A program made the position numbers and the translations under genes. A stretch of DNA of 64,000 bases, from positions 1 through 64,000 of the forward strand of contig JAQWAL010000001.1 in the NCBI GenBank assembly GCA_028707695.1. Reading direction: 5' to 3'. Of the stretch, positions 2,368-12,496 are shown in pieces. This DNA comes from Bacteroidales bacterium. Lineage in GTDB: Bacteria; Bacteroidota; Bacteroidia; Bacteroidales; UBA932. The notes below the pieces were generated by a model. That model searched no databases. It was not told where the DNA came from and worked only from the letters and a program-made list of their open reading frames with translations. How positions within the stretch are numbered: position 1 is the stretch's first letter; each line of letters opens with the position of its first letter.

Positions 2368-5300
2368 TCAAATTTTTTCCACCGCAATCGTCAAGGTTCC
2401 CTCTTCCCACTCAATCTGCTCACCCTCTGCAAAACCGGGAACAGCTGTCAACCCCTTGGCCAATGTTTGGCTGCAAATATAATCTTTATATTCACACAGT
2501 GCATCTTCTATCTCCTGTCTCGATTCCAAAGTTATCATTATCTTGTCAGTCACCTCAAAACCAGAGTCTTTCCTTAGGTTCTGGATTCTGTTTACCAGCT
2601 CCCTTGCAACACCCTCCCTACGCAGGGAATCCGTAATGGTAATATCAAGGGCTACTGTCAGCTTACCTTCGGAAGCCACCAACCATCCCGGCATATCCTC
2701 CGATGTAATCTCCACATCGGCAGGTGTTATCTCCACAATACCACCGGGCAATTCCATCCTGAAAAGCTCCCCGGTCTCTATTTCGGTAATCTGGTCCTGG
2801 GAAATTGCAGCAAAAGCAGCAGAAATCTCCTTCATCTGTTTCCCGTACTTTTTGCCCAAAACCTTGAAATTCGGCTTGATTTTCTTGGTTATAAGACCAC
2901 GTGTATCTTCAATGTACTCCACATCCTTCACATTCACCTCTCCCAAAACCAATTGGCGAACCTGCTCAAATTGCTCCCTTATCTTGTTGTCCAGCACCGG
3001 AACCAAAATACGGGCAAGAGGCTGCCTTACCTTGATATTTACCTTCCTTCTCAGTGCCAACACCATAGAAGAAGAGCGCTGAGCCAGTTCCATCCTCTCT
3101 TCCAACGCCTTGTCCACTGCTCTTTCATCTGCCACAGGCATCTCTACAAGGTGAACACTCTCTTGGCTGTAAAAACCGGTTACATTATTAAGGTCCAGAA
3201 AGAGTCGCTCCATAAAGAACGGAGCAATAGGTGCAGATATAATGGCAATCCTTTCAAGGCAAGTATATAGCGTCTGGTATGCACTCAGTTTGTCATCGTT
3301 CATCTCACCTCCCCAGAATCGCTTTCTGTTCAGCCTTACATACCAGTTGCTAAGGTTGTCGTTCACAAAATCCTGTATTTTCCTGCCTGCAGAGGTAACA
3401 TCGTAATTTTCATACGCATCGCCAACCTCCTTTACCAAGGTATTGAGCAGGGAAATGATCCATCTGTCAATTTCTGGCCTTTGTTCCACAGGAATTTGCC
3501 CTGCACTATTGTCAAAATTGTCAACATTCGCATAAAGTGCAAAGAAGGAGTATGTATTGTAAAGGGTCCCGAAAAACTTACGTTTAACCTCGTCAACACC
3601 TCCCACATCAAACTTCAGGTTGTCCCATGGCTGGGCATTTGTGAGCATGTACCACCTCAAAGCGTCAGCACCATATTCACCAAGTGTCTTGAACGGATCC
3701 ACTGCATTGCCCAAACGCTTGCTCATCTTGTTCCCCTCTTTGTCAAGCACCAAACCATTGGATATTACGGTTTTGAATGCCACATCATCTTTCACCATGG
3801 TAGCAATTGCATGCAACGTGAAAAACCATCCACGAGTCTGGTCCACACCCTCTGCAATGAAATCGGCCGCCCTTCCAAAAGCATCTGAATTAAGATTTTC
3901 AAGACCCTCCTGGGCAAAAGGCATGGCGCCGGAATCAAACCAAACATCTATCAAATCACTCTCCCTCATCATTTTGCATCCATTATCAGCAACCAGCACA
4001 ATATCATCTACATAAGGCCTGTGCAAATCTATCTTGTTGTAGTTTTCCAAGGAAAAATCGCCTGGTACAAATCCATTCTCTTTGAGTGGGTTGGATTTCA
4101 TCAACCCGGCTTTTACCGATTTTTCAACCTCTTGGTACAACTCATGTGCAGAGCCAATGCAAATCTCCTGCGACCCGTCTTCTGCCCTCCATACAGGAAG
4201 AGGCGTACCCCAATAACGGCTCCTGGAAAGGTTCCAGTCCTGCAGGTTCTCCAGCCACTTTCCAAAACGTCCGCTTCCGGTAGATTCCGGTTTCCAATTG
4301 ATAGTATTGTTGAGTTCTATCATCCTCTTTTGCACCGCTGTGGTTTTGATAAACCATGAGTCCAATGGATAATAGAGAACAGGCTTGTCGGTCCTCCAAC
4401 AGTGTGGATATGAGTGGACATGTTTTTCAATTTTGAAAGCCAGCCCCTGCTGTTTTAGCATCACAGCCAAATCCACATCCAATGTTGCATCATCCTCCTT
4501 CAAATTAGGGTCGTAGCTGTTTTTTACAAACCTGCCGGCATACTCACCGTATAGCTTGGCATCCACAGACTCCTCCACAAACACAGGATCCATCTCTTCC
4601 AGCCTGTAGAATTTGCCGGTGCGGTCCACAAGCGCCTGCATGTTTCCCTCTGCATCCTTGATGACCAACGCCGGAACCGAATTCCTGCTTGCCACCCTCT
4701 GGTCATCTGCCCCGAAAGTGGGAGCAATATGCACTATACCTGTACCATCCGAAGTAGTCACAAAATCACCGGGTATCACCCTGAATGCCCCTTCACCGGG
4801 ATTTACCCAAGGAATCAACTGCTGGTAGCTTATCCCCACCAAATCGGAGCCTTTTACAACATCTCCCACCAACCTGTAAGGAACAACCTTGTCCCCTGCC
4901 TTGAAATCATCCATCGGCAGCTCTGCCCCCTTGGAGTTGAATATAGATGGAACCAGCTCCCGTGCAACCAGGTACAACGCCCTCTCTCCCGAATAGGGGT
5001 TGAACGATTCCACCTTAGCATAATCAATGTTTGGTCCTACGCAAAGGGCTGTGTTCGATGGCAAAGTCCATGGTGTGGTGGTCCAGGCAAGCATGAACAG
5101 GGGAAGCCTGTCTCCTTTTGTTAGTTTTGCAGAGTTTTCGTTGTCAACAACCTTGAACTGTGCAATACATGTGGTATCCTTCACATCACGGTAACACCCT
5201 GGCTGGTTCAGCTCATGCGTACTGAGTCCCGTACCCGCTGCCGGAGAAAAAGGTTGTATGGAGTATCCTTTGTACAAATATCCCTTGTCATAGATCACTT

Positions 5301-5790
5301 TCAAAAGGTGCCACAAGGTCTCTATATACCTGTTGTCATAGGTTATGTAAGGATCGTTCATATCCACCCAGTAACCCATCTGCTCGGTGAGTCCCTCCCA
5401 CTCCTTGGTATATTTCATGACCTCTTTGCGGCAAGCATTGTTGTACTCTGCCACAGAGATAGATTTGCCAATATCTTCCTTGGTAATTCCAAGCATCTTC
5501 TCAACCCCAAGTTCCACAGGAAGACCATGTGTGTCCCAACCTGCCTTCCTTTGCACAAGGAACCCCTTCTGGGTTTTGTAACGGCAAAAGACATCCTTTA
5601 TTGCCCTGGCCATAACATGATGTATACCAGGCATTCCATTTGCCGAAGGCGGACCCTCGTGAAAGATGAACCTGGGAGCACCTTCCCTTTGCGAAATAGT
5701 TTTTGTAAAACAATTTTCTTTGTTCCACTTTCTCAATACAGAGTTGTTTATCTCTACGAGGTCTAAGTTTTTATATTCGGCAAATTTCAT
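2368..5790 (-). CDS. ileS: Isoleucyl-tRNA synthetase
   Basis: A class I aminoacyl-tRNA synthetase of 1140 residues, the long form found in Bacteroidota and eukaryotes. The HIGH-type signature is GMPGIHH (residues 52-58) and the KMSKS-type loop is KMSKR (about residue 687). A large editing domain lies between them, and an anticodon-binding region follows. The start is placed at the ATG beginning MKFAEYKNLDL, where homologues begin. A Bacteroidota promoter sits about 22 bases upstream. Confidence 0.97.
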   Translation of the reverse strand: MKFAEYKNLDLVEINNSVLRKWNKENCFTKTISQREGAPRFIFHEGPPSANGMPGIHHVMARAIKDVFCRYKTQKGFLVQRKAGWDTHGLPVELGVEKMLGITKEDIGKSISVAEYNNACRKEVMKYTKEWEGLTEQMGYWVDMNDPYITYDNRYIETLWHLLKVIYDKGYLYKGYSIQPFSPAAGTGLSTHELNQPGCYRDVKDTTCIAQFKVVDNENSAKLTKGDRLPLFMLAWTTTPWTLPSNTALCVGPNIDYAKVESFNPYSGERALYLVARELVPSIFNSKGAELPMDDFKAGDKVVPYRLVGDVVKGSDLVGISYQQLIPWVNPGEGAFRVIPGDFVTTSDGTGIVHIAPTFGADDQRVASRNSVPALVIKDAEGNMQALVDRTGKFYRLEEMDPVFVEESVDAKLYGEYAGRFVKNSYDPNLKEDDATLDVDLAVMLKQQGLAFKIEKHVHSYPHCWRTDKPVLYYPLDSWFIKTTAVQKRMIELNNTINWKPESTGSGRFGKWLENLQDWNLSRSRYWGTPLPVWRAEDGSQEICIGSAHELYQEVEKSVKAGLMKSNPLKENGFVPGDFSLENYNKIDLHRPYVDDIVLVADNGCKMMRESDLIDVWFDSGAMPFAQEGLENLNSDAFGRAADFIAEGVDQTRGWFFTLHAIATMVKDDVAFKTVISNGLVLDKEGNKMSKRLGNAVDPFKTLGEYGADALRWYMLTNAQPWDNLKFDVGGVDEVKRKFFGTLYNTYSFFALYANVDNFDNSAGQIPVEQRPEIDRWIISLLNTLVKEVGDAYENYDVTSAGRKIQDFVNDNLSNWYVRLNRKRFWGGEMNDDKLSAYQTLYTCLERIAIISAPIAPFFMERLFLDLNNVTGFYSQESVHLVEMPVADERAVDKALEERMELAQRSSSMVLALRRKVNIKVRQPLARILVPVLDNKIREQFEQVRQLVLGEVNVKDVEYIEDTRGLITKKIKPNFKVLGKKYGKQMKEISAAFAAISQDQITEIETGELFRMELPGGIVEITPADVEITSEDMPGWLVASEGKLTVALDITITDSLRREGVARELVNRIQNLRKDSGFEVTDKIMITLESRQEIEDALCEYKDYICSQTLAKGLTAVPGFAEGEQIEWEEGTLTIAVEKI

Positions 5791-5807
5791 CTTGTGTTTT
5801 TTTTGAA

Positions 5808-5838
5808 TTTGCAAAGATACGATTATTCATTACTTTTG
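5808..5838 (+). promoter_or_regulatory. Promoter of the CvpA-family gene
   Basis: TTTG (5808-5811), a 19-base spacer and TACTTTTG (5831-5838) form an exact consensus promoter. Transcription should begin near 5845, leaving only about 7 bases before the ATG at 5852. The element interleaves with the ileS promoter on the other strand. Confidence 0.7.
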
Positions 5839-5841
5839 AAA
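5812..5841 (-). promoter_or_regulatory. Promoter of ileS
   Basis: The minus strand carries TATCTTTG (5819-5812), an exact TAnnTTTG -7 element, with TTTC 18 bases upstream as a -33 box. The predicted start point is about 15 bases before the ileS ATG. It overlaps the divergent cvpA promoter. Confidence 0.55.
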
Positions 5842-5851
5842 AAAATTGATT

Positions 5852-6355
5852 ATGGGCAATACCCTCAACAGTGTAGACGTTTTCCTGCTCATCTGTTTTG
5901 TCCCGGCCATTATTGGCGGCATTATGAGCGGATTGGTAAGGCAGGTGGCATCGCTTGTGGCACTAATACTTGGAGCTTGGGCTGGCTGGCACTTCTCGGC
6001 TTTGCTTGCAGAGGGAATAAAGATTTGGTTCAAGAGCGATAGTGAACTTATAGGAATCATCTCGTTTGCCATAATTTTCATCGCTGTTGTGATTGTTGTC
6101 AACCTCATTGGAAAAGCTCTCTCCGGAATCATAAAATTTGTCATGTTGGGGTGGCTGGACCGGCTTTTGGGAGTGATATTCGCAATTCTCAAATATGCAT
6201 TCATTTTCAGTGTCGCCATCTATCTCTTGAACTCTCTGGATGCCCTTTATCCCTTTCTTCCAAAGCATATAATCAAACAATCTGCACTTTACCCTCTCTT
6301 GGAATCCATGGCTCCATCCCTTTTCCCATACCTTCAAAAGATAAATCTTTTTTAA
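5852..6355 (+). CDS. CvpA-family inner-membrane protein
   Basis: A 167-residue protein with four predicted membrane helices (about residues 8-30, 32-55, 70-92 and 108-130), matching the CvpA (colicin V production) family. E. coli CvpA is needed for colicin V production and for resistance to bile salts, but the molecular function is unknown. The ATG at 5852 fits the promoter better than the TTG six bases earlier. It precedes the peptide exporter operon, but about 205 bases and a separate candidate promoter lie between them, so a functional link is speculative. Confidence 0.85.
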   Translation: MGNTLNSVDVFLLICFVPAIIGGIMSGLVRQVASLVALILGAWAGWHFSALLAEGIKIWFKSDSELIGIISFAIIFIAVVIVVNLIGKALSGIIKFVMLGWLDRLLGVIFAILKYAFIFSVAIYLLNSLDALYPFLPKHIIKQSALYPLLESMAPSLFPYLQKINLF

Positions 6356-6414: not shown

Positions 6415-6444
6415 TTGACAATTTTTTGCAATAGTTTAGCTTTC
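6415..6444 (+). promoter_or_regulatory. Candidate promoter of the peptide-secretion operon
   Basis: TTG (6415-6417, within TTGACA) is followed after 19 bases by TAGCTTTC (6437-6444), one mismatch from TAnnTTTG. It is the best promoter-like sequence in the 205-base gap before the exporter gene. It implies a leader of about 110 bases. Confidence 0.35.
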
Positions 6445-6516
6445 GGGAACGGGGCAGAAGGGAAGAGCTTCTCTTACAAGCACGAGAGAAAATGCAGAGG
6501 TAGATTTCCCGTTCCT
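6445..6516 (+). other. Leader stem in the 5' region of the exporter gene
   Basis: GGAACGGG (6446-6453) is the exact complement of CCCGTTCC (6508-6515), and a flanking G-T pair extends the stem. The loop of about 54 bases can itself form a GAAG/CTTC hairpin. The start of the stem coincides with the predicted transcription start. It may stabilise the mRNA or control translation; the sequence alone does not decide. Confidence 0.35.
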
Positions 6517-6560
6517 TTCTTATATGAATTTTGGTTGTTTCAAGAATTGGAGGGTGGGTT

Positions 6561-8645
6561 ATGTTGCGAAAAAGAATTTCCGTCAAAGTCAGGCAAAATG
6601 ATATCAGTGATTGCGGTGCCGCAGCATTGGCCTCTGTTGCAGCCCACGGAGGAATAAGATGTTCGGTTGCGGTTTTGCGGCACATGAGTGGCACAGACCA
6701 GTCAGGTACATCTGTGAAAGGGTTGGTAGAGGCATCCAAATCCATAGGTATAGGCGCAGAGGCTTTCAAAGGAACAAAGGATTCTCTGTCACTTATTCCA
6801 AAGCCCGCCATACTCCACATGAAAAAAAAGGAAGGCAGGCTCCATTATGTGGTACTGACGCAATCTTCAGGAAAATACTTCAAGGTCATGGACCCTGCAG
6901 ACGGTCAAATACACAAACAGAGCCTGGAACAAATCTGCATGGAATGGACAGGTGTCTTGTTACTGTTCACATTTCCGCAATCGGGCAAAATCCCTCCATT
7001 CACACTTGCCCCACATGTCAAAAACCTATTGACCAATGCACAACAAGGATGGAAAATTTATCCTGTATCTACCGTCATATCAATATTCGGGACCCTCTCC
7101 ATGGTAGCCGTAGCTCTGTTCATCAAAGAGCTTATTGACTCTGTGATACCCGATGGTAACCAGAAACGCCTTGTTTCAATGTCGGCAATTTTGATTGTCA
7201 TCACAGTGGTTTCAATTTTCCTCTCAGCCATCCGCTCCTACCTGTTACTCAAACACGCTGTAAATACAGAGGAAAAACTGACCGGTTCATACCTGAGTCA
7301 TTTGTGCAGTATTCCACTGCCCTTTTACAGTACTTTCAAAACAGGCGAACTCACTTCCAGGATCTCAGACATATACAGAATACGCAATTTCATTGCAGAG
7401 ACTCTTCCGGATGCAGTGATATCCCTGCTAACATTGGTTATCTCATTCATATTGCTATTTGGCATGAACCCTGGCCTGGCATTGGTTTGTACCCTTTTCA
7501 TACCTCTCTACGCAGCTGTTTTCATACTCCATGACAGGGCCAGGAAACCTCTCTTCAAAAGACTTATGGAAAAGGGAGCTTCATTCCAGGGGTATATAAT
7601 TGAAAGCCTCAAATCCATGGCAACCATAAGGAATTTTGGAATGGAAAACTACTCTTTGTCCAAGGCATCATCCAAATTCCGGGAGTTGAAAACAGAAATG
7701 GTAGCAAACGGACGAATAGCCATAATTGCTGGAAGTTCTTCCGAACTTGCCACCAGACTGCTTACCGTTACAGTGTTATGGACAGGGGGAAGTGCTGTTG
7801 TATCTGGAAAGATCACTGCAGGGGAGATGGTATCGTTTTATGCCTTGGCAGCCCTGTTTACAGCTCCAATGCAACAACTTGCCTCTTCATTCACAGCCCT
7901 CAGGGAAGGATTGACTGCCTCATACCGGCTACATGACATAATGTCTGTCCACAAGGAAAACCAAAGCGATTGCAAAAAAAGTGAACATATGATTGAAGCC
8001 AGGAATATCTCGTTCGGATATCCGGGACGCAGGCTACTGTTCCGTAACCTCTCATTTTCCATGCACAAAGGCAAAGTGCTTTTGATAAAAGGCAAAAGCG
8101 GCTGCGGCAAAAGTACCGTGGTCTCATTGCTCATGAAACACCTGGAACCATTAGAGGGAGAGGTTGCCTGCAACCTAGCCGGCAAATGTTCACTTGTCGA
8201 TTACAGGAAAAACATTGCACTTGTTCCGCAAAACCCGCAGCTATGGGGGGACTCAATCATGGAGTGCATTATTCCCGGCAATGGCCGGGAGTTGGATTGT
8301 AATTATTTCACATCCATAGTCAAAGAGCTTGAACTTGACAAAATGGCCATGAGGCTCCCGTTCGGGTTCTCTACACATCCGGGAGAAGGCGGAGCCCTTC
8401 TGTCGCGCGGAGAACAGCAAAGGATAGCATTTGCAAGGGCACTCATGAAAAAGGCCCCGGTATTGCTTATGGATGAAGCTACGGCATCACTTGACAACAA
8501 ATCTGAATCCCTCATCAGGGACTCTCTCCTTAAACTGAAAGGATCAGGATGTGCCATCCTGATAGTATCTCACGATCAAAAAATGGTTGAGATTGCCGAT
8601 TACATAATAGACATGGATAACTACAGTTGCAACATATTGACTTGA
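6561..8645 (+). CDS. Peptidase-containing ABC transporter (C39 bacteriocin exporter)
   Basis: A 694-residue exporter that should cleave double-glycine leaders and move the mature peptides across the inner membrane. Domains in order: C39 peptidase (1-135) with Q12, catalytic C18 (in NDISDCGAA), H95 and D111; a six-helix membrane domain (about 155-440); and an ABC ATPase (about 465-694) with Walker A GKSGCGKST, signature LSRGEQQ (canonical LSGGQ) and Walker B VLLMDEATASLD. The ATG at 6561 is preceded by GGAGGG at a 6-base spacing, an unusually good ribosome-binding site for this phylum. Two double-glycine peptide genes, a TolC-like channel and an adaptor follow on the same strand. Confidence 0.95.
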   Translation: MLRKRISVKVRQNDISDCGAAALASVAAHGGIRCSVAVLRHMSGTDQSGTSVKGLVEASKSIGIGAEAFKGTKDSLSLIPKPAILHMKKKEGRLHYVVLTQSSGKYFKVMDPADGQIHKQSLEQICMEWTGVLLLFTFPQSGKIPPFTLAPHVKNLLTNAQQGWKIYPVSTVISIFGTLSMVAVALFIKELIDSVIPDGNQKRLVSMSAILIVITVVSIFLSAIRSYLLLKHAVNTEEKLTGSYLSHLCSIPLPFYSTFKTGELTSRISDIYRIRNFIAETLPDAVISLLTLVISFILLFGMNPGLALVCTLFIPLYAAVFILHDRARKPLFKRLMEKGASFQGYIIESLKSMATIRNFGMENYSLSKASSKFRELKTEMVANGRIAIIAGSSSELATRLLTVTVLWTGGSAVVSGKITAGEMVSFYALAALFTAPMQQLASSFTALREGLTASYRLHDIMSVHKENQSDCKKSEHMIEARNISFGYPGRRLLFRNLSFSMHKGKVLLIKGKSGCGKSTVVSLLMKHLEPLEGEVACNLAGKCSLVDYRKNIALVPQNPQLWGDSIMECIIPGNGRELDCNYFTSIVKELELDKMAMRLPFGFSTHPGEGGALLSRGEQQRIAFARALMKKAPVLLMDEATASLDNKSESLIRDSLLKLKGSGCAILIVSHDQKMVEIADYIIDMDNYSCNILT

Positions 8646-8681
8646 AAAATCATATAAACGGAGGGTGCACACTCCTGGTGG

Positions 8682-8708
8682 TTCCTGCACACCATATCTC
8701 TGCAGGAA
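8682..8708 (+). other. Stem-loop between exporter and peptide genes
   Basis: TTCCTGCA (8682-8689) and TGCAGGAA (8701-8708) are perfect complements around an 11-base loop. No T tract follows, so it does not look like an intrinsic terminator. Its place, 20 bases before the first peptide gene, suggests an RNA-processing or stability element that could raise peptide expression relative to the exporter. A smaller GGAG/CTCC hairpin lies just upstream. Confidence 0.5.
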
Positions 8709-8728
8709 AAAATAAAAACCAAATAATC

Positions 8729-8917
8729 ATGAAAGAGCATTCAAAAGCAGAATGGGGGCTGGTTCCCCTTGAGGAGAGGGAGATGCTGCAAAACGGGGGC
8801 ATGTCCCTCAGGGAGTTGTGGCAATTGCTCAGCATACTTGGAGAGGCTGTGAAGAAAGCCGAAAAGTATTGGCCAAAATTCAAAGAAGGATTTGTAGAAG
8901 GATGGGAGGCTGCGTAA
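8729..8917 (+). CDS. Double-glycine leader peptide A (putative bacteriocin or signal peptide)
   Basis: A 62-residue cysteine-free peptide. Residues 1-24 look like a double-glycine leader: LVPL at 11-14, EM at 18-19 and GG at 23-24. The predicted mature peptide (25-62, 38 residues, net charge about zero) has an amphipathic first half rich in Leu and Trp and a GxxxG motif, GFVEG, at 54-58. No homologue is recognised. The case rests on position beside a C39 exporter, on the leader, and on the match to peptide B. An ATG further upstream is not needed, since the leader begins naturally at 8729. There is no clear ribosome-binding site. Confidence 0.72.
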   Translation: MKEHSKAEWGLVPLEEREMLQNGGMSLRELWQLLSILGEAVKKAEKYWPKFKEGFVEGWEAA

Positions 8918-9129
8918 TGGAAAATGATTTGAAAAAAATTATGCTGGTTCCACTCGGGCAAGAACAAATGATCTCTATAAGAGGTGGTTCCGAGGGTTGG
9001 GACTATGAAATTGCAAAAGCAATGGGAAAAGGTTTCGGCTTTTCACTAAGGAAACTGGCAAGGATGCTCAAGTTTTTGAGTGAGAACTTGTATGAGATGC
9101 AAGCTAATACCCAGGTCATTTACAAATAA
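8917..9129 (+). CDS. Double-glycine leader peptide B (putative partner peptide)
   Basis: A 70-residue cysteine-free peptide whose ATG shares one base with the TAA of peptide A (TAATG), which implies translational coupling. GGGAGG lies 7 bases upstream. The leader again ends with GG at 23-24 and contains LVPL (10-13), M18 and I21, close to the classical pattern L(-12), M(-7), I(-4), GG. The predicted mature part is 46 residues with net charge about +2. It has a GxxxG motif (G37-G41, GKGFG) and an amphipathic helix with basic residues (about 42-60). It resembles one half of a two-peptide bacteriocin, but a pheromone is possible. No known family is recognised. Confidence 0.75.
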   Translation: MENDLKKIMLVPLGQEQMISIRGGSEGWDYEIAKAMGKGFGFSLRKLARMLKFLSENLYEMQANTQVIYK

Positions 9130-9166
9130 ATTCCTGGTGAAATTATTTCTTTGACGGGAGTTTGTA

Positions 9167-10513
9167 ATGGAAAAAAATATAACTTTGTCGGGTATGAAAA
9201 AATATTACATCCTCCCGTTATTGATACTCATCTCCTTTCCGGCACTTTTGTCAGCACAAAAGAGTTGGACATTGGAGGAGTGCATAAGGTATGCCTGGGA
9301 AAACAACCTCCAGCTTAAACAGCAGGAACTATCGGTTGAGCAAAGTCAAAACAACCTTGGGCAGGCCAAGCTAAACTACATCCCCACAGTGAGTGCATCA
9401 CTAAGCCACTCCATGAACTGGGGGCGTTCGGTAAATGTGCAGGACCTGGAAATCATAGAAAACAAGCTATCCCAAAGCACCAGTGCAAGTGCAAGGGCTT
9501 CTGTCAACGTTTTCGAGGGCTTCACAAAATCCAACGACATCAAAAGCAAAGGCATCTTGGTAGAAATTGCCAAAAGTGAAGTGGAAAAACTTCGCAACGA
9601 CATTTCGGTGGAAATTGCCCGCTCTTTCCTTCAAATCCTTTTATCAAGGGAAATCCTCGAGGCCTCCCTTGCCAGTCTGGAAAGCGCGCAACAACAGGCA
9701 GAAAGAACAAAAATACTGGTAAATGCAGGGAGCCTTGCATACAGCTCACAACTTGAGATAGAGGCCCAGATTGCATCTGAAAAAGTGCAAGTTGTAAACG
9801 CCCGCAACCAACTCAGGTCATCTCTGCTAACCCTAAGGCAACTCCTGGATTTGGAAAGTGATTCCGGTTTCGACATCCAACAGGTCCAGACAGATTTCCT
9901 TATCCGGGAATACAACGGAGAATCACCCGAAGAGTTATACCGTTCTTCCATACAGCTCCCTCAAATCAAGATTGCACAGTTAAACCTTGAAAACTCAAAG
10001 TTGCAACTTTCAATTGCCAAAGGAAGGCTATATCCATCCATCTCTTTTTCTGCCGGTTACGGGACATACTACTCAGACAGCAGGGAACAAGCTTTTTTTG
10101 ACCAATTCAACGAGAACCGCAACCCATCGCTTGGTTTCGGGCTCAACATCCCTATATTCAACAACTACATGGCACGTACCAATGTCAAGAATGCACAGCT
10201 GGGAGTCAGGAATGCAGAGATAGACCACAAATACAGGCTGCAATTGCTCTACAAAGAGATCCAGCAAGCTTCCAACGACGCAATTTCTTATTTTGAGAGG
10301 TTCAAAGCATCCGAACAAAATGTTGTTGCAATGGAAGAGTCTTTCCGTTACGTGCAGCAAAAATTTGATGTAGGAGTTTTGAATGCAACCGATTATGTTG
10401 TAGCCAAGACCAACCTCTTCAGGGCTCAGTCAGAGATGTACCAGGCAAAATACCAATATTTGTTCCAACTCAAGATACTGGACTTTTACAAAGGCGTTCC
10501 AATCTCAATTTAA
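9167..10513 (+). CDS. TolC-family outer-membrane channel protein
   Basis: A 448-residue outer-membrane efflux protein. A signal peptide ends near LLSAQKS, followed by two OEP repeats with long heptad-rich helices (about 60-240 and 265-440) such as VVNARNQLRSSLLTLRQLL. It would provide the exit duct for the peptide exporter through the periplasm and outer membrane. The ATG at 9167 has GGGAG six bases upstream. The ATG at 9194 (MKKYYILPLL) would give a more compact signal peptide and is the alternative start. It lies 37 bases after peptide B and 11 before the adaptor gene. Confidence 0.92.
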   Translation: MEKNITLSGMKKYYILPLLILISFPALLSAQKSWTLEECIRYAWENNLQLKQQELSVEQSQNNLGQAKLNYIPTVSASLSHSMNWGRSVNVQDLEIIENKLSQSTSASARASVNVFEGFTKSNDIKSKGILVEIAKSEVEKLRNDISVEIARSFLQILLSREILEASLASLESAQQQAERTKILVNAGSLAYSSQLEIEAQIASEKVQVVNARNQLRSSLLTLRQLLDLESDSGFDIQQVQTDFLIREYNGESPEELYRSSIQLPQIKIAQLNLENSKLQLSIAKGRLYPSISFSAGYGTYYSDSREQAFFDQFNENRNPSLGFGLNIPIFNNYMARTNVKNAQLGVRNAEIDHKYRLQLLYKEIQQASNDAISYFERFKASEQNVVAMEESFRYVQQKFDVGVLNATDYVVAKTNLFRAQSEMYQAKYQYLFQLKILDFYKGVPISI

Positions 10514-10524
10514 TACCGACAAAA

Positions 10525-11769
10525 ATGAAAAAATCAATAAAGTGGATTATTGCCGCTGCCATAGTTTTGATTGTCATTCTGGCAGTGATAGGCAACAAGA
10601 ACAGCAAAAACGCCGTAGAGGTAGAGGCTCAGCAAACAGCTTCAAGGACAATAGTAGAGGTTATTCCTGCCAACGGGAAAATCCAGCCGGTGACAGAAGT
10701 CAAGATAAGCCCGGACGTTTCGGGTGAGATTGTAGAACTTAATTACCAGGAGGGCGACGTAATAAAAAGAGGTGACCTTATTATCAAAATCAAGCAAGAT
10801 GTCTATATCTCCATGAGGGAGAGGGCAGAGGCCTCACTCAACTCAGTAAAGGCACAACTTTCCCAGCAACTTGCCCAGTTCCAACAGATAGAACAAACCT
10901 ACCTTCGCAACAAATCTTTATACGAACAAAAAGCAATATCGGCTTCGGATTACGAGAACGCCCTTTCTCAATACCAGGTTGCCAAAGCCCAAATAAAGGC
11001 TGCGGAATTCAATGTCAAGAGTTCTGAGGCTGCACTCAAGGAGGCTCAGGAAAACCTTACAAAGACAATTATCTACGCCCCAATGGATGGCATCATATCC
11101 AAAATGAGTGTAGAAAAAGGCGAAAGGGTTGTAGGGACAAGCCAGATGGCTGGTACTGAAATGCTGCGCATAGCAAATTTCCAATACATGGAAGTGCTGG
11201 TAGATGTCAACGAAAACGACATCATTAGGATTGCCCAGGGCGACACAGCTACAATTGATGTGGATGCATACCCGGGGCGCAAATTCACCGGCATTGTCAC
11301 CCAAATTGCCAATTCTGCAAAAAACATCGGATCTGCAGTAGACCAGGTGACAAACTTCGAAGTCAAAGTATATATCCTGCCTGAGTCATACAACGACCTC
11401 CTGGAGCAAGGCAAAACACCTTTCCGTCCAGGCATGTCGGCTTCTGTATCTGTGCAGACCAACCGCAAAGAAAACGTAATAGCCATACCGTTGCAATCCA
11501 TAACAACCCGTTCCGACCTTTTGTCGGACTCGGTCAAAACCGCCTTGGGAACCGGATTCATTGCAGAGCAAGTATTTGTTATAAAAGAGGACAACACTGT
11601 AGAACTTAGGCAAATAACCACCGGCATACAGGACCTTGGTTTCATTGAGGTGCTCACCGGTCTCAAAGAGGGAGAAACAATTGTAACTGCTCCATTCACA
11701 GCCATCAGCAAAACGCTGAAAGATGGAAAACCAGTAAAAATAAAAGAAAAGGAAGAAAGTGGAAAATAA
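10525..11769 (+). CDS. Periplasmic adaptor (membrane fusion) protein, HlyD/MacA-like
   Basis: A 414-residue adaptor anchored by one N-terminal helix (about residues 5-22). A split biotinyl-lipoyl domain (PDVSGEIVELNYQEGDVI; YAPMDGIISKM) flanks a coiled-coil hairpin (about 85-185). Beta-barrel and membrane-proximal domains follow. It bridges an inner-membrane transporter to the TolC channel. The long hairpin and sequence are closer to MacA/RND-type adaptors than to colicin-V-type CvaA, so it may also serve other pumps. Its last 11 bases overlap tsaB. Confidence 0.9.
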   Translation: MKKSIKWIIAAAIVLIVILAVIGNKNSKNAVEVEAQQTASRTIVEVIPANGKIQPVTEVKISPDVSGEIVELNYQEGDVIKRGDLIIKIKQDVYISMRERAEASLNSVKAQLSQQLAQFQQIEQTYLRNKSLYEQKAISASDYENALSQYQVAKAQIKAAEFNVKSSEAALKEAQENLTKTIIYAPMDGIISKMSVEKGERVVGTSQMAGTEMLRIANFQYMEVLVDVNENDIIRIAQGDTATIDVDAYPGRKFTGIVTQIANSAKNIGSAVDQVTNFEVKVYILPESYNDLLEQGKTPFRPGMSASVSVQTNRKENVIAIPLQSITTRSDLLSDSVKTALGTGFIAEQVFVIKEDNTVELRQITTGIQDLGFIEVLTGLKEGETIVTAPFTAISKTLKDGKPVKIKEKEESGK

Positions 11770-12496
11770 AAGAGACCTCATACTTCTTGTAGAAACGGCA
11801 ACCGAACTCTGTTCGGTTGCTCTTAGTTCCAACGGTAAAGTCATAGCACAAAAAGTTTCCCGGGAACCCCGTTCCCACACCTCTGTATTGTCTGTGCTCA
11901 CATCCGGGCTTTTAAAAGATTCCAATGTCAAAACAAACGAACTTGATGCAGTTGCCGTAAGCGAGGGGCCCGGATCATACACAGGTCTGCGTGTAGGGCT
12001 CTCGTTTGCAAAAGGACTCTGCTATGCCCTTTCAAAGCCACTTATTTCCGTTGGCACTCTGGACACTATTGCCTCAATTGCTTTGGAAAACGACAAGGTA
12101 AAAGAGCTTATTGACAACCTGGGAGCCGATAATGTCATTATTGTACCAATGATAGATGCGCGCAGGATGGAGGTCTACACTGCCTGTTTTTCGGGCAAAG
12201 GCAAGATTATTTCCCAAGTGGAGCCTCTTGTTGTGACCCAAGATAGTTTCGACTCCTTACTGGCAAACAAAACCCTTCTGTTTTGCGGGGATGGTTCACC
12301 AAAGGTCTCCTCATTGCTTTTAAGTCCAAATGCAAAATTCATAGAGATAGAGCTTCTTGCACATGGGATGGCCAAAATGGCATACGACAAATACATAAAA
12401 AAAACCTTTGAGGACCTGGCCTATTTCCAACCATTCTACCTCAAAGATTTTATTGCAGGCAAACCCAAAAAGGATATCCTGAGACCTACTCTCTGA
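11759..12496 (+). CDS. tsaB: tRNA N6-threonylcarbamoyladenosine biosynthesis protein TsaB
   Basis: A 245-residue ASKHA-fold protein. The N-terminal LVETATELCSVAL and the SEGPGSYTGLRVGLSFAKGL segment are the TsaB signatures. With TsaD and TsaE it transfers the threonylcarbamoyl group to A37 of ANN-decoding tRNAs in the cytoplasm. The start codon overlaps the adaptor gene, so it is probably read from the same transcript although its role is unrelated. It converges with the next gene and the two reading frames overlap by 11 bases. Confidence 0.95.
   Translation: MENKRDLILLVETATELCSVALSSNGKVIAQKVSREPRSHTSVLSVLTSGLLKDSNVKTNELDAVAVSEGPGSYTGLRVGLSFAKGLCYALSKPLISVGTLDTIASIALENDKVKELIDNLGADNVIIVPMIDARRMEVYTACFSGKGKIISQVEPLVVTQDSFDSLLANKTLLFCGDGSPKVSSLLLSPNAKFIEIELLAHGMAKMAYDKYIKKTFEDLAYFQPFYLKDFIAGKPKKDILRPTL

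Follow-up and report, generated by a model that had tools for sequence, protein, structure and literature searches.

Adjacent double-glycine peptides with aligned GxxxG motifs beside a C39 exporter at a core chromosomal locus of a Bacteroidales genus

In a 64,000-nucleotide stretch of a Bacteroidales genome (contig JAQWAL010000001.1; hereafter the window), a peptidase-containing ABC exporter is followed by two small genes whose products both carry double-glycine (GG) leaders and a GxxxG motif, and this arrangement recurs in the same chromosomal slot across the genus. With a little more confidence than doubt, and reading from sequence, we favour the explanation that the two products are a chromosomal, class IIb-like pair of helical peptides, which would be cleaved and exported together and would act on the membranes of neighbouring cells. 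The export block lies between cvpA and tsaB, with ileS divergent and upstream beside cvpA, and the features of the region are as follows:

5846..6355, + strand: cvpA-like gene (Colicin_V family; PF02674, E 1e-28), the constant upstream neighbour
6447..6520, + strand: long hairpin that encloses a smaller stem-loop and is rich in U on its 3' side; it precedes the exporter start by about 40 nt and is supported by RNA folds in relatives
6561..8645, + strand: peptidase-containing ABC exporter (C39 peptidase, transmembrane region, ATPase) with catalytic C18, H95 and D111
8729..8917, + strand: peptide A precursor, a 24-aa GG leader and a 38-aa mature part, MSLRELWQLLSILGEAVKKAEKYWPKFKEGFVEGWEAA, with GxxxG at precursor residues 54-58
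8917..9129, + strand: peptide B precursor, a 24-aa GG leader and a 46-aa mature part, SEGWDYEIAKAMGKGFGFSLRKLARMLKFLSENLYEMQANTQVIYK, with GxxxG at precursor residues 37-41
9167..10513, + strand: TolC-family outer-membrane channel (OEP, E 1.5e-52), likely to serve the exporter
10525..11769, + strand: periplasmic adaptor of RND_mfp/MacA type (TIGR01730), likely to serve the exporter
11759..12496, + strand: tsaB, a housekeeping tRNA-modification gene (TIGR03725, above cut-off) that closes the syntenic block

The exporter gene runs from an ATG at 6561 to a stop codon ending at 8645 and encodes 694 aa. Its product carries the domains Peptidase_C39 (PF03412, E 7.6e-29), ABC_membrane (PF00664) and ABC_tran (PF00005), and it aligns end to end with PCAT1 (4ry2, 316 bits), the residues C18, H95 and D111 and their RQ(N/D)D..DCGA context matching. 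A single chain unites an N-terminal C39 peptidase bearing the Cys/His/Asp triad, a transmembrane region and an ATPase, the make-up of C39 (PCAT) exporters. A preliminary description of this DNA had recognised the exporter with its intact triad and, in line on the same strand, a TolC-like channel and a periplasmic adaptor, all of which stand (the last two by their OEP and TIGR01730 matches); it had also placed the block at 6415-11769, correctly as to the genes and wrongly as to the start, since 6415 belongs to another frame. A second C39 exporter is present in the same genome (L053, G000:C6; 5965-8157, - strand), with an HlyD-like adaptor (4686-5972, -) and, nearby, a GG peptide of a different type (8285-8524, -; VVGG, then DRVVEITDKYGNVWYF...); a similar second exporter was seen in many genomes of the window's genus. 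At L043 and L044 (G134 and G123) the exporter match is split near query residues 460-480, between the transmembrane region and the ATPase, as an insertion relative to the window exporter would give.

Peptide A has 62 residues and peptide B 70, and each of the 73 intact loci read, the window included, has both directly after the C39 exporter (seven were read by hand, their cleavage site being AG or the exporter end misplaced). The two small peptides with 24-residue GG leaders and mature lengths of 38 and 46, as originally proposed, are thereby confirmed, and chance small open reading frames are ruled out by these orthologs together with dN/dS values of about 0.03-0.18 for both peptides in close species pairs. 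Both peptides are under purifying selection; their mean within-genus identity (0.52 and 0.50) is slightly better than that of the exporter (0.46; 237 pairs). Between genera, by contrast, the mature sequences differ strongly outside GxxxG. Of 70 distinct mature sequences of each peptide, 68 of A and 65 of B contain the motif, against about 19 expected after shuffling each sequence, counts in which related sequences are not independent although the sample covers 11 genera with little other identity. Across genera, the near-invariant residues of 30-member alignments are the start Met, the leader GG and the GxxxG glycines only; the aligned glycines stand four apart (G54 and G58 in A, G37 and G41 in B), and the B peptides that lack GxxxG carry A in place of the first G. 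The window peptides have one GxxxG apiece, with no extended GxxxGxxxG.

Both peptides are amphipathic (mean maximum moment 0.61 for A and 0.58 for B, vs 0.37 and 0.38 for shuffled sequences), and AlphaFold2 predicts, at medium confidence (mean pLDDT 74-77), that most of each mature part forms a single long helix. In the window A has a net charge of 0 and B of +2, and Cys is absent from both mature parts. Profile searches of PDB and Pfam gave no meaningful match to a known class IIb peptide or other family: weak ComC and Bacteriocin_IIc matches came from single relatives only and are probably leader-driven, and a profile search for A-like peptides elsewhere in the order returned weak matches only, with no exporter nearby. 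The start of B overlaps the stop of A (TAATG) in the window and in 23 of 23 loci of the genus. Because GxxxG is aligned in both peptides and their genes overlap in this way, A and B are best read as the putative halves of one paired system; the preliminary description was right to see two GG substrates, and its treatment of them as separate peptides is not favoured.

All 25 genomes of the genus have the exporter, as do 97 of 150 family genomes, drawn evenly from a larger group; in 66 of these 150, spanning 11 genera, exporter and adaptor are linked on one strand 1.7-3.5 kb apart, linkage being called by coordinates and score cut-offs with distant adaptors scored as absent. Many of the relatives are draft or metagenome-assembled genomes. 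The genus loci that were fetched whole have the uniform order ileS / cvpA - exporter - A - B - tolC - adaptor - tsaB. Recurrence of the block in relatives, with a conserved leader and a variable mature region, had been suggested as a check and was found; relatives that keep the exporter at the locus with the peptides missing or frameshifted were sought, and none turned up. In the genus, a further locus (L114) has both peptides, and L121, where the exporter match is truncated, gave no peptide match. At L181 (G055, genus g18), a cvpA fragment and an extra 395-aa protein, adaptor-like by eye only, lie upstream of the exporter, the pair bears GFVDGF and GLGASLG, and tolC is preceded by a third GG peptide.

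The peptide/exporter locus is inherited mostly vertically. In a FastTree exporter tree, g5, g7, g12, g15, g16, g19 and g22 are monophyletic, g1 is so too apart from the lone g13 locus that interrupts it, and the two g3 loci fall separately; across 23 loci, exporter distances track ileS distances (Pearson 0.86), as do those of peptide A (0.83) and peptide B (0.84). A mobile bacteriocin island is accordingly rejected for the genus, in which 25 of 25 genomes hold the exporter in the same slot and the exporter tree agrees for the most part with the genera. Beyond the family, related exporters sit at other genomic places, some with similar peptide pairs: L075 and L076, which belong to other families of the order, have exporters elsewhere than at the tsaB locus, accompanied by two A-/B-like GG peptides (at L075, family f25, one ending ..AAFKAGWNS and another with ..GKAARA..), which suggests a greater age, or a greater mobility, of the pair beyond the family.

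Upstream, cvpA is probably not part of the export system, since it is also present where the exporter is absent: four family loci (L090, L093, L099 and L102) read cvpA-tsaB or ileS-cvpA-tsaB, and a functional link of cvpA to the system is unsupported. The interval between cvpA and the exporter contains the hairpin in the window and also at L034-L044, L108-L118, L046, L136, L139, L140 and L148; its outer arms vary in sequence between species and keep their pairing. Stem scores exceed those of dinucleotide shuffles in g1, g22, g19 and others (25.3 vs 15.6 for the genus, 28.6 vs 17.4 for g22), this shuffle control being the evidence for the hairpin, as an own-versus-cross arm test is biased by arms picked for complementarity. 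The hairpin is absent in g7 and has no Rfam match, and RNAalifold gave no consensus pair, MAFFT having misaligned the arms. Attenuation within a leader is one role that it could have, and termination of cvpA by a long-looped structure another.

The preliminary description had called the block a complete type I secretion operon; exporter and substrates hold, and the word complete claims too much. The adaptor matches TIGR01730 (RND_mfp) at 178.9 bits, above the 94.9 cut-off, and falls below the type I HlyD model (TIGR01843; 52.2 bits, 208.65 required), so that it lies outside the HlyD/CvaA type of adaptor. Without the exporter, the run tolC-adaptor-tsaB is found at four family loci (L088, L092, L097 and L098) and, in families elsewhere in the order, at L091 and L095; conversely, four g15 genomes lack tolC and adaptor here and have the exporter and peptide A immediately upstream of tsaB (B was seen in one). 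On this evidence the tightest unit is that of exporter and peptides; the part played by the neighbouring TolC and adaptor is one that we infer. The same loci, and the adaptor's score against the HlyD model, would fit an export system of exporter and peptides alone, with tolC and adaptor as an unrelated efflux pair downstream by chance; we regard this as somewhat unlikely, given the same-strand gap of only 37 nt between B and tolC and a linkage held in 66 genomes of 11 genera. In having a C39 exporter, an adaptor and TolC, the window resembles the CvaAB-TolC system of colicin V, a class II microcin. Colicin V differs in being one longer peptide, plasmid-borne with an immunity gene and served by an HlyD-like adaptor.

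Two-peptide bacteriocins are made as two precursors with leaders and contain GxxxG or GxxxG-like motifs (PMC6957408), and by analogy the present locus would work like such a class IIb pair (lactococcin G, plantaricins EF and JK, carnobacteriocin XY). Shared with these are two adjacent genes for GG precursors (in 73 loci), a C39 exporter and GxxxG or GxxxG-like motifs in both mature peptides. Set beside the usual cationic, amphipathic peptides of 30-50 aa, A and B have 38 and 46 aa, are amphipathic and predicted helical, and carry net charges of 0 and +2. Unlike class IIb are the non-cationic peptide A, a host that is Gram-negative and has TolC and an adaptor of MacA type, the core rather than accessory locus, and the lack of a detectable sequence match and of an immunity gene beside the peptides in the window. 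An immunity candidate is found in one related genus: in all nine g22 loci read, a gene between B and tolC, on the same strand, encodes a 235-246 aa membrane protein with an Rce1/CPBP (Abi) domain (PF02517; E 1.5e-14 and 3.6e-16 for two of them), and proteins of the Abi/CPBP family are known to confer immunity to two-peptide bacteriocins (PMC6957408). No other genus read has such a gene or any other immunity gene; the window genome has two CPBP genes, both on other contigs, and as a candidate for immunity there they give evidence neither way.

The closest Gram-negative analogue is Cdz of Caulobacter, a two-peptide GxxxG type I system for contact killing (PMC5380434), in which an ABC exporter and an adaptor likewise accompany two small peptides bearing GxxxG. 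Cdz differs in its larger peptides (84 and 86 aa) with extended GxxxGxxxG zippers, which the window peptides lack, in its dedicated CdzI immunity gene, for which the window has no counterpart, and in a cluster without tolC; Cdz-like systems are, moreover, largely patchy and in proteobacteria. Bacteroidetocins, GG bacteriocins of Bacteroidales that have no immunity gene and inhibit their own producers (PMC6671954), share Bacteroidetes producers, a C39 exporter, a short GG peptide and the absence of an immunity gene. Theirs is a single Cys-bearing peptide with a 15-16 aa leader, accompanied by genes for a thiol oxidoreductase and a transmembrane protein (PMC6671954), in contrast to the two Cys-free peptides with 24-aa leaders of the window, whose operon has neither of those genes. 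As one defining feature of each group is missing here, we assign the locus to none of the three, neither class IIb nor Cdz nor the bacteroidetocins.

From the observed gene arrangement, motifs, triad, co-conservation, purifying selection and synteny, we infer a course of cleavage, export, pairing, membrane targeting and antagonistic use. The A and B precursors would be made together, in this genus through translation coupled at the TAATG stop-start overlap; during export, the exporter's C39 domain would cut both after GG; and TolC and the MacA-type adaptor would probably carry the peptides across the envelope. Outside the cell, the two amphipathic helices may pair through their GxxxG faces, and the paired helices may then insert into or permeabilise the membranes of neighbouring, probably related, cells.

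Taken as a proposal for a bacteriocin, the preliminary description gains from the class IIb-like signature and is weakened by a fixed, vertically inherited core locus with no immunity gene in the window. The class IIb-like reading draws on the adjacent GG pair, aligned GxxxG, amphipathic helices, the TAATG overlap, the g22 CPBP gene and the Cdz precedent; against it count the four g15 loci without tolC and adaptor, the missing immunity gene, the zero charge of peptide A, the lack of a known-peptide profile match, and a genus-wide, vertical distribution in place of the patchy, mobile one usual for bacteriocins. The missing immunity gene is not fatal, since bacteroidetocins without one inhibit their own producers. 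Core status under vertical inheritance is odd for a weapon, and so a signalling or an envelope role stays alive. An exported pair sensed by the same species, like the GG pheromones of Gram-positives, with its receptor encoded elsewhere, would suit a core locus that is strongly conserved within the genus and has no immunity gene; we nevertheless think it unlikely, as no locus read has a regulator or sensor gene beside the peptides, a pheromone has no need of two peptides with aligned GxxxG, and the g22 CPBP gene fits immunity better. That same gene speaks against a pair that stays in or on the producer's envelope and serves surface structure, aggregation or stress rather than killing, as does the strong divergence between genera outside GxxxG, less typical of a structural part; such a role, to which we give slightly less credence still, would accord with the fixed position between housekeeping genes across the genus, the amphipathic helices, the MacA-type adaptor and the absence of a self-protection gene, and the Cdz peptides CdzC and CdzD themselves remain cell-associated.

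Two-peptide GG/GxxxG systems are known mainly from Gram-positives, with Cdz in Caulobacter, and our literature search turned up no account of one from Bacteroidales. In the present genus a pair of this kind is fixed as a core trait; it occupies a single genomic position common to at least 11 genera, and it diverges between genera yet keeps GxxxG, which raises the question of what purpose a bacteriocin-like pair serves where all members produce it and have retained no immunity gene. We suggest, tentatively, that this core, vertically inherited pair of a Bacteroidales family, exported by all members of the genus without an immunity gene, might have a non-killing use (communication, kin recognition or envelope maintenance), and that weapon-like versions with immunity, such as those of g22, might have arisen from such pairs or been tamed to them. 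The natural series of variants, with and without the CPBP gene and with and without a local TolC and adaptor, is usable for dissecting immunity and export in these bacteria.
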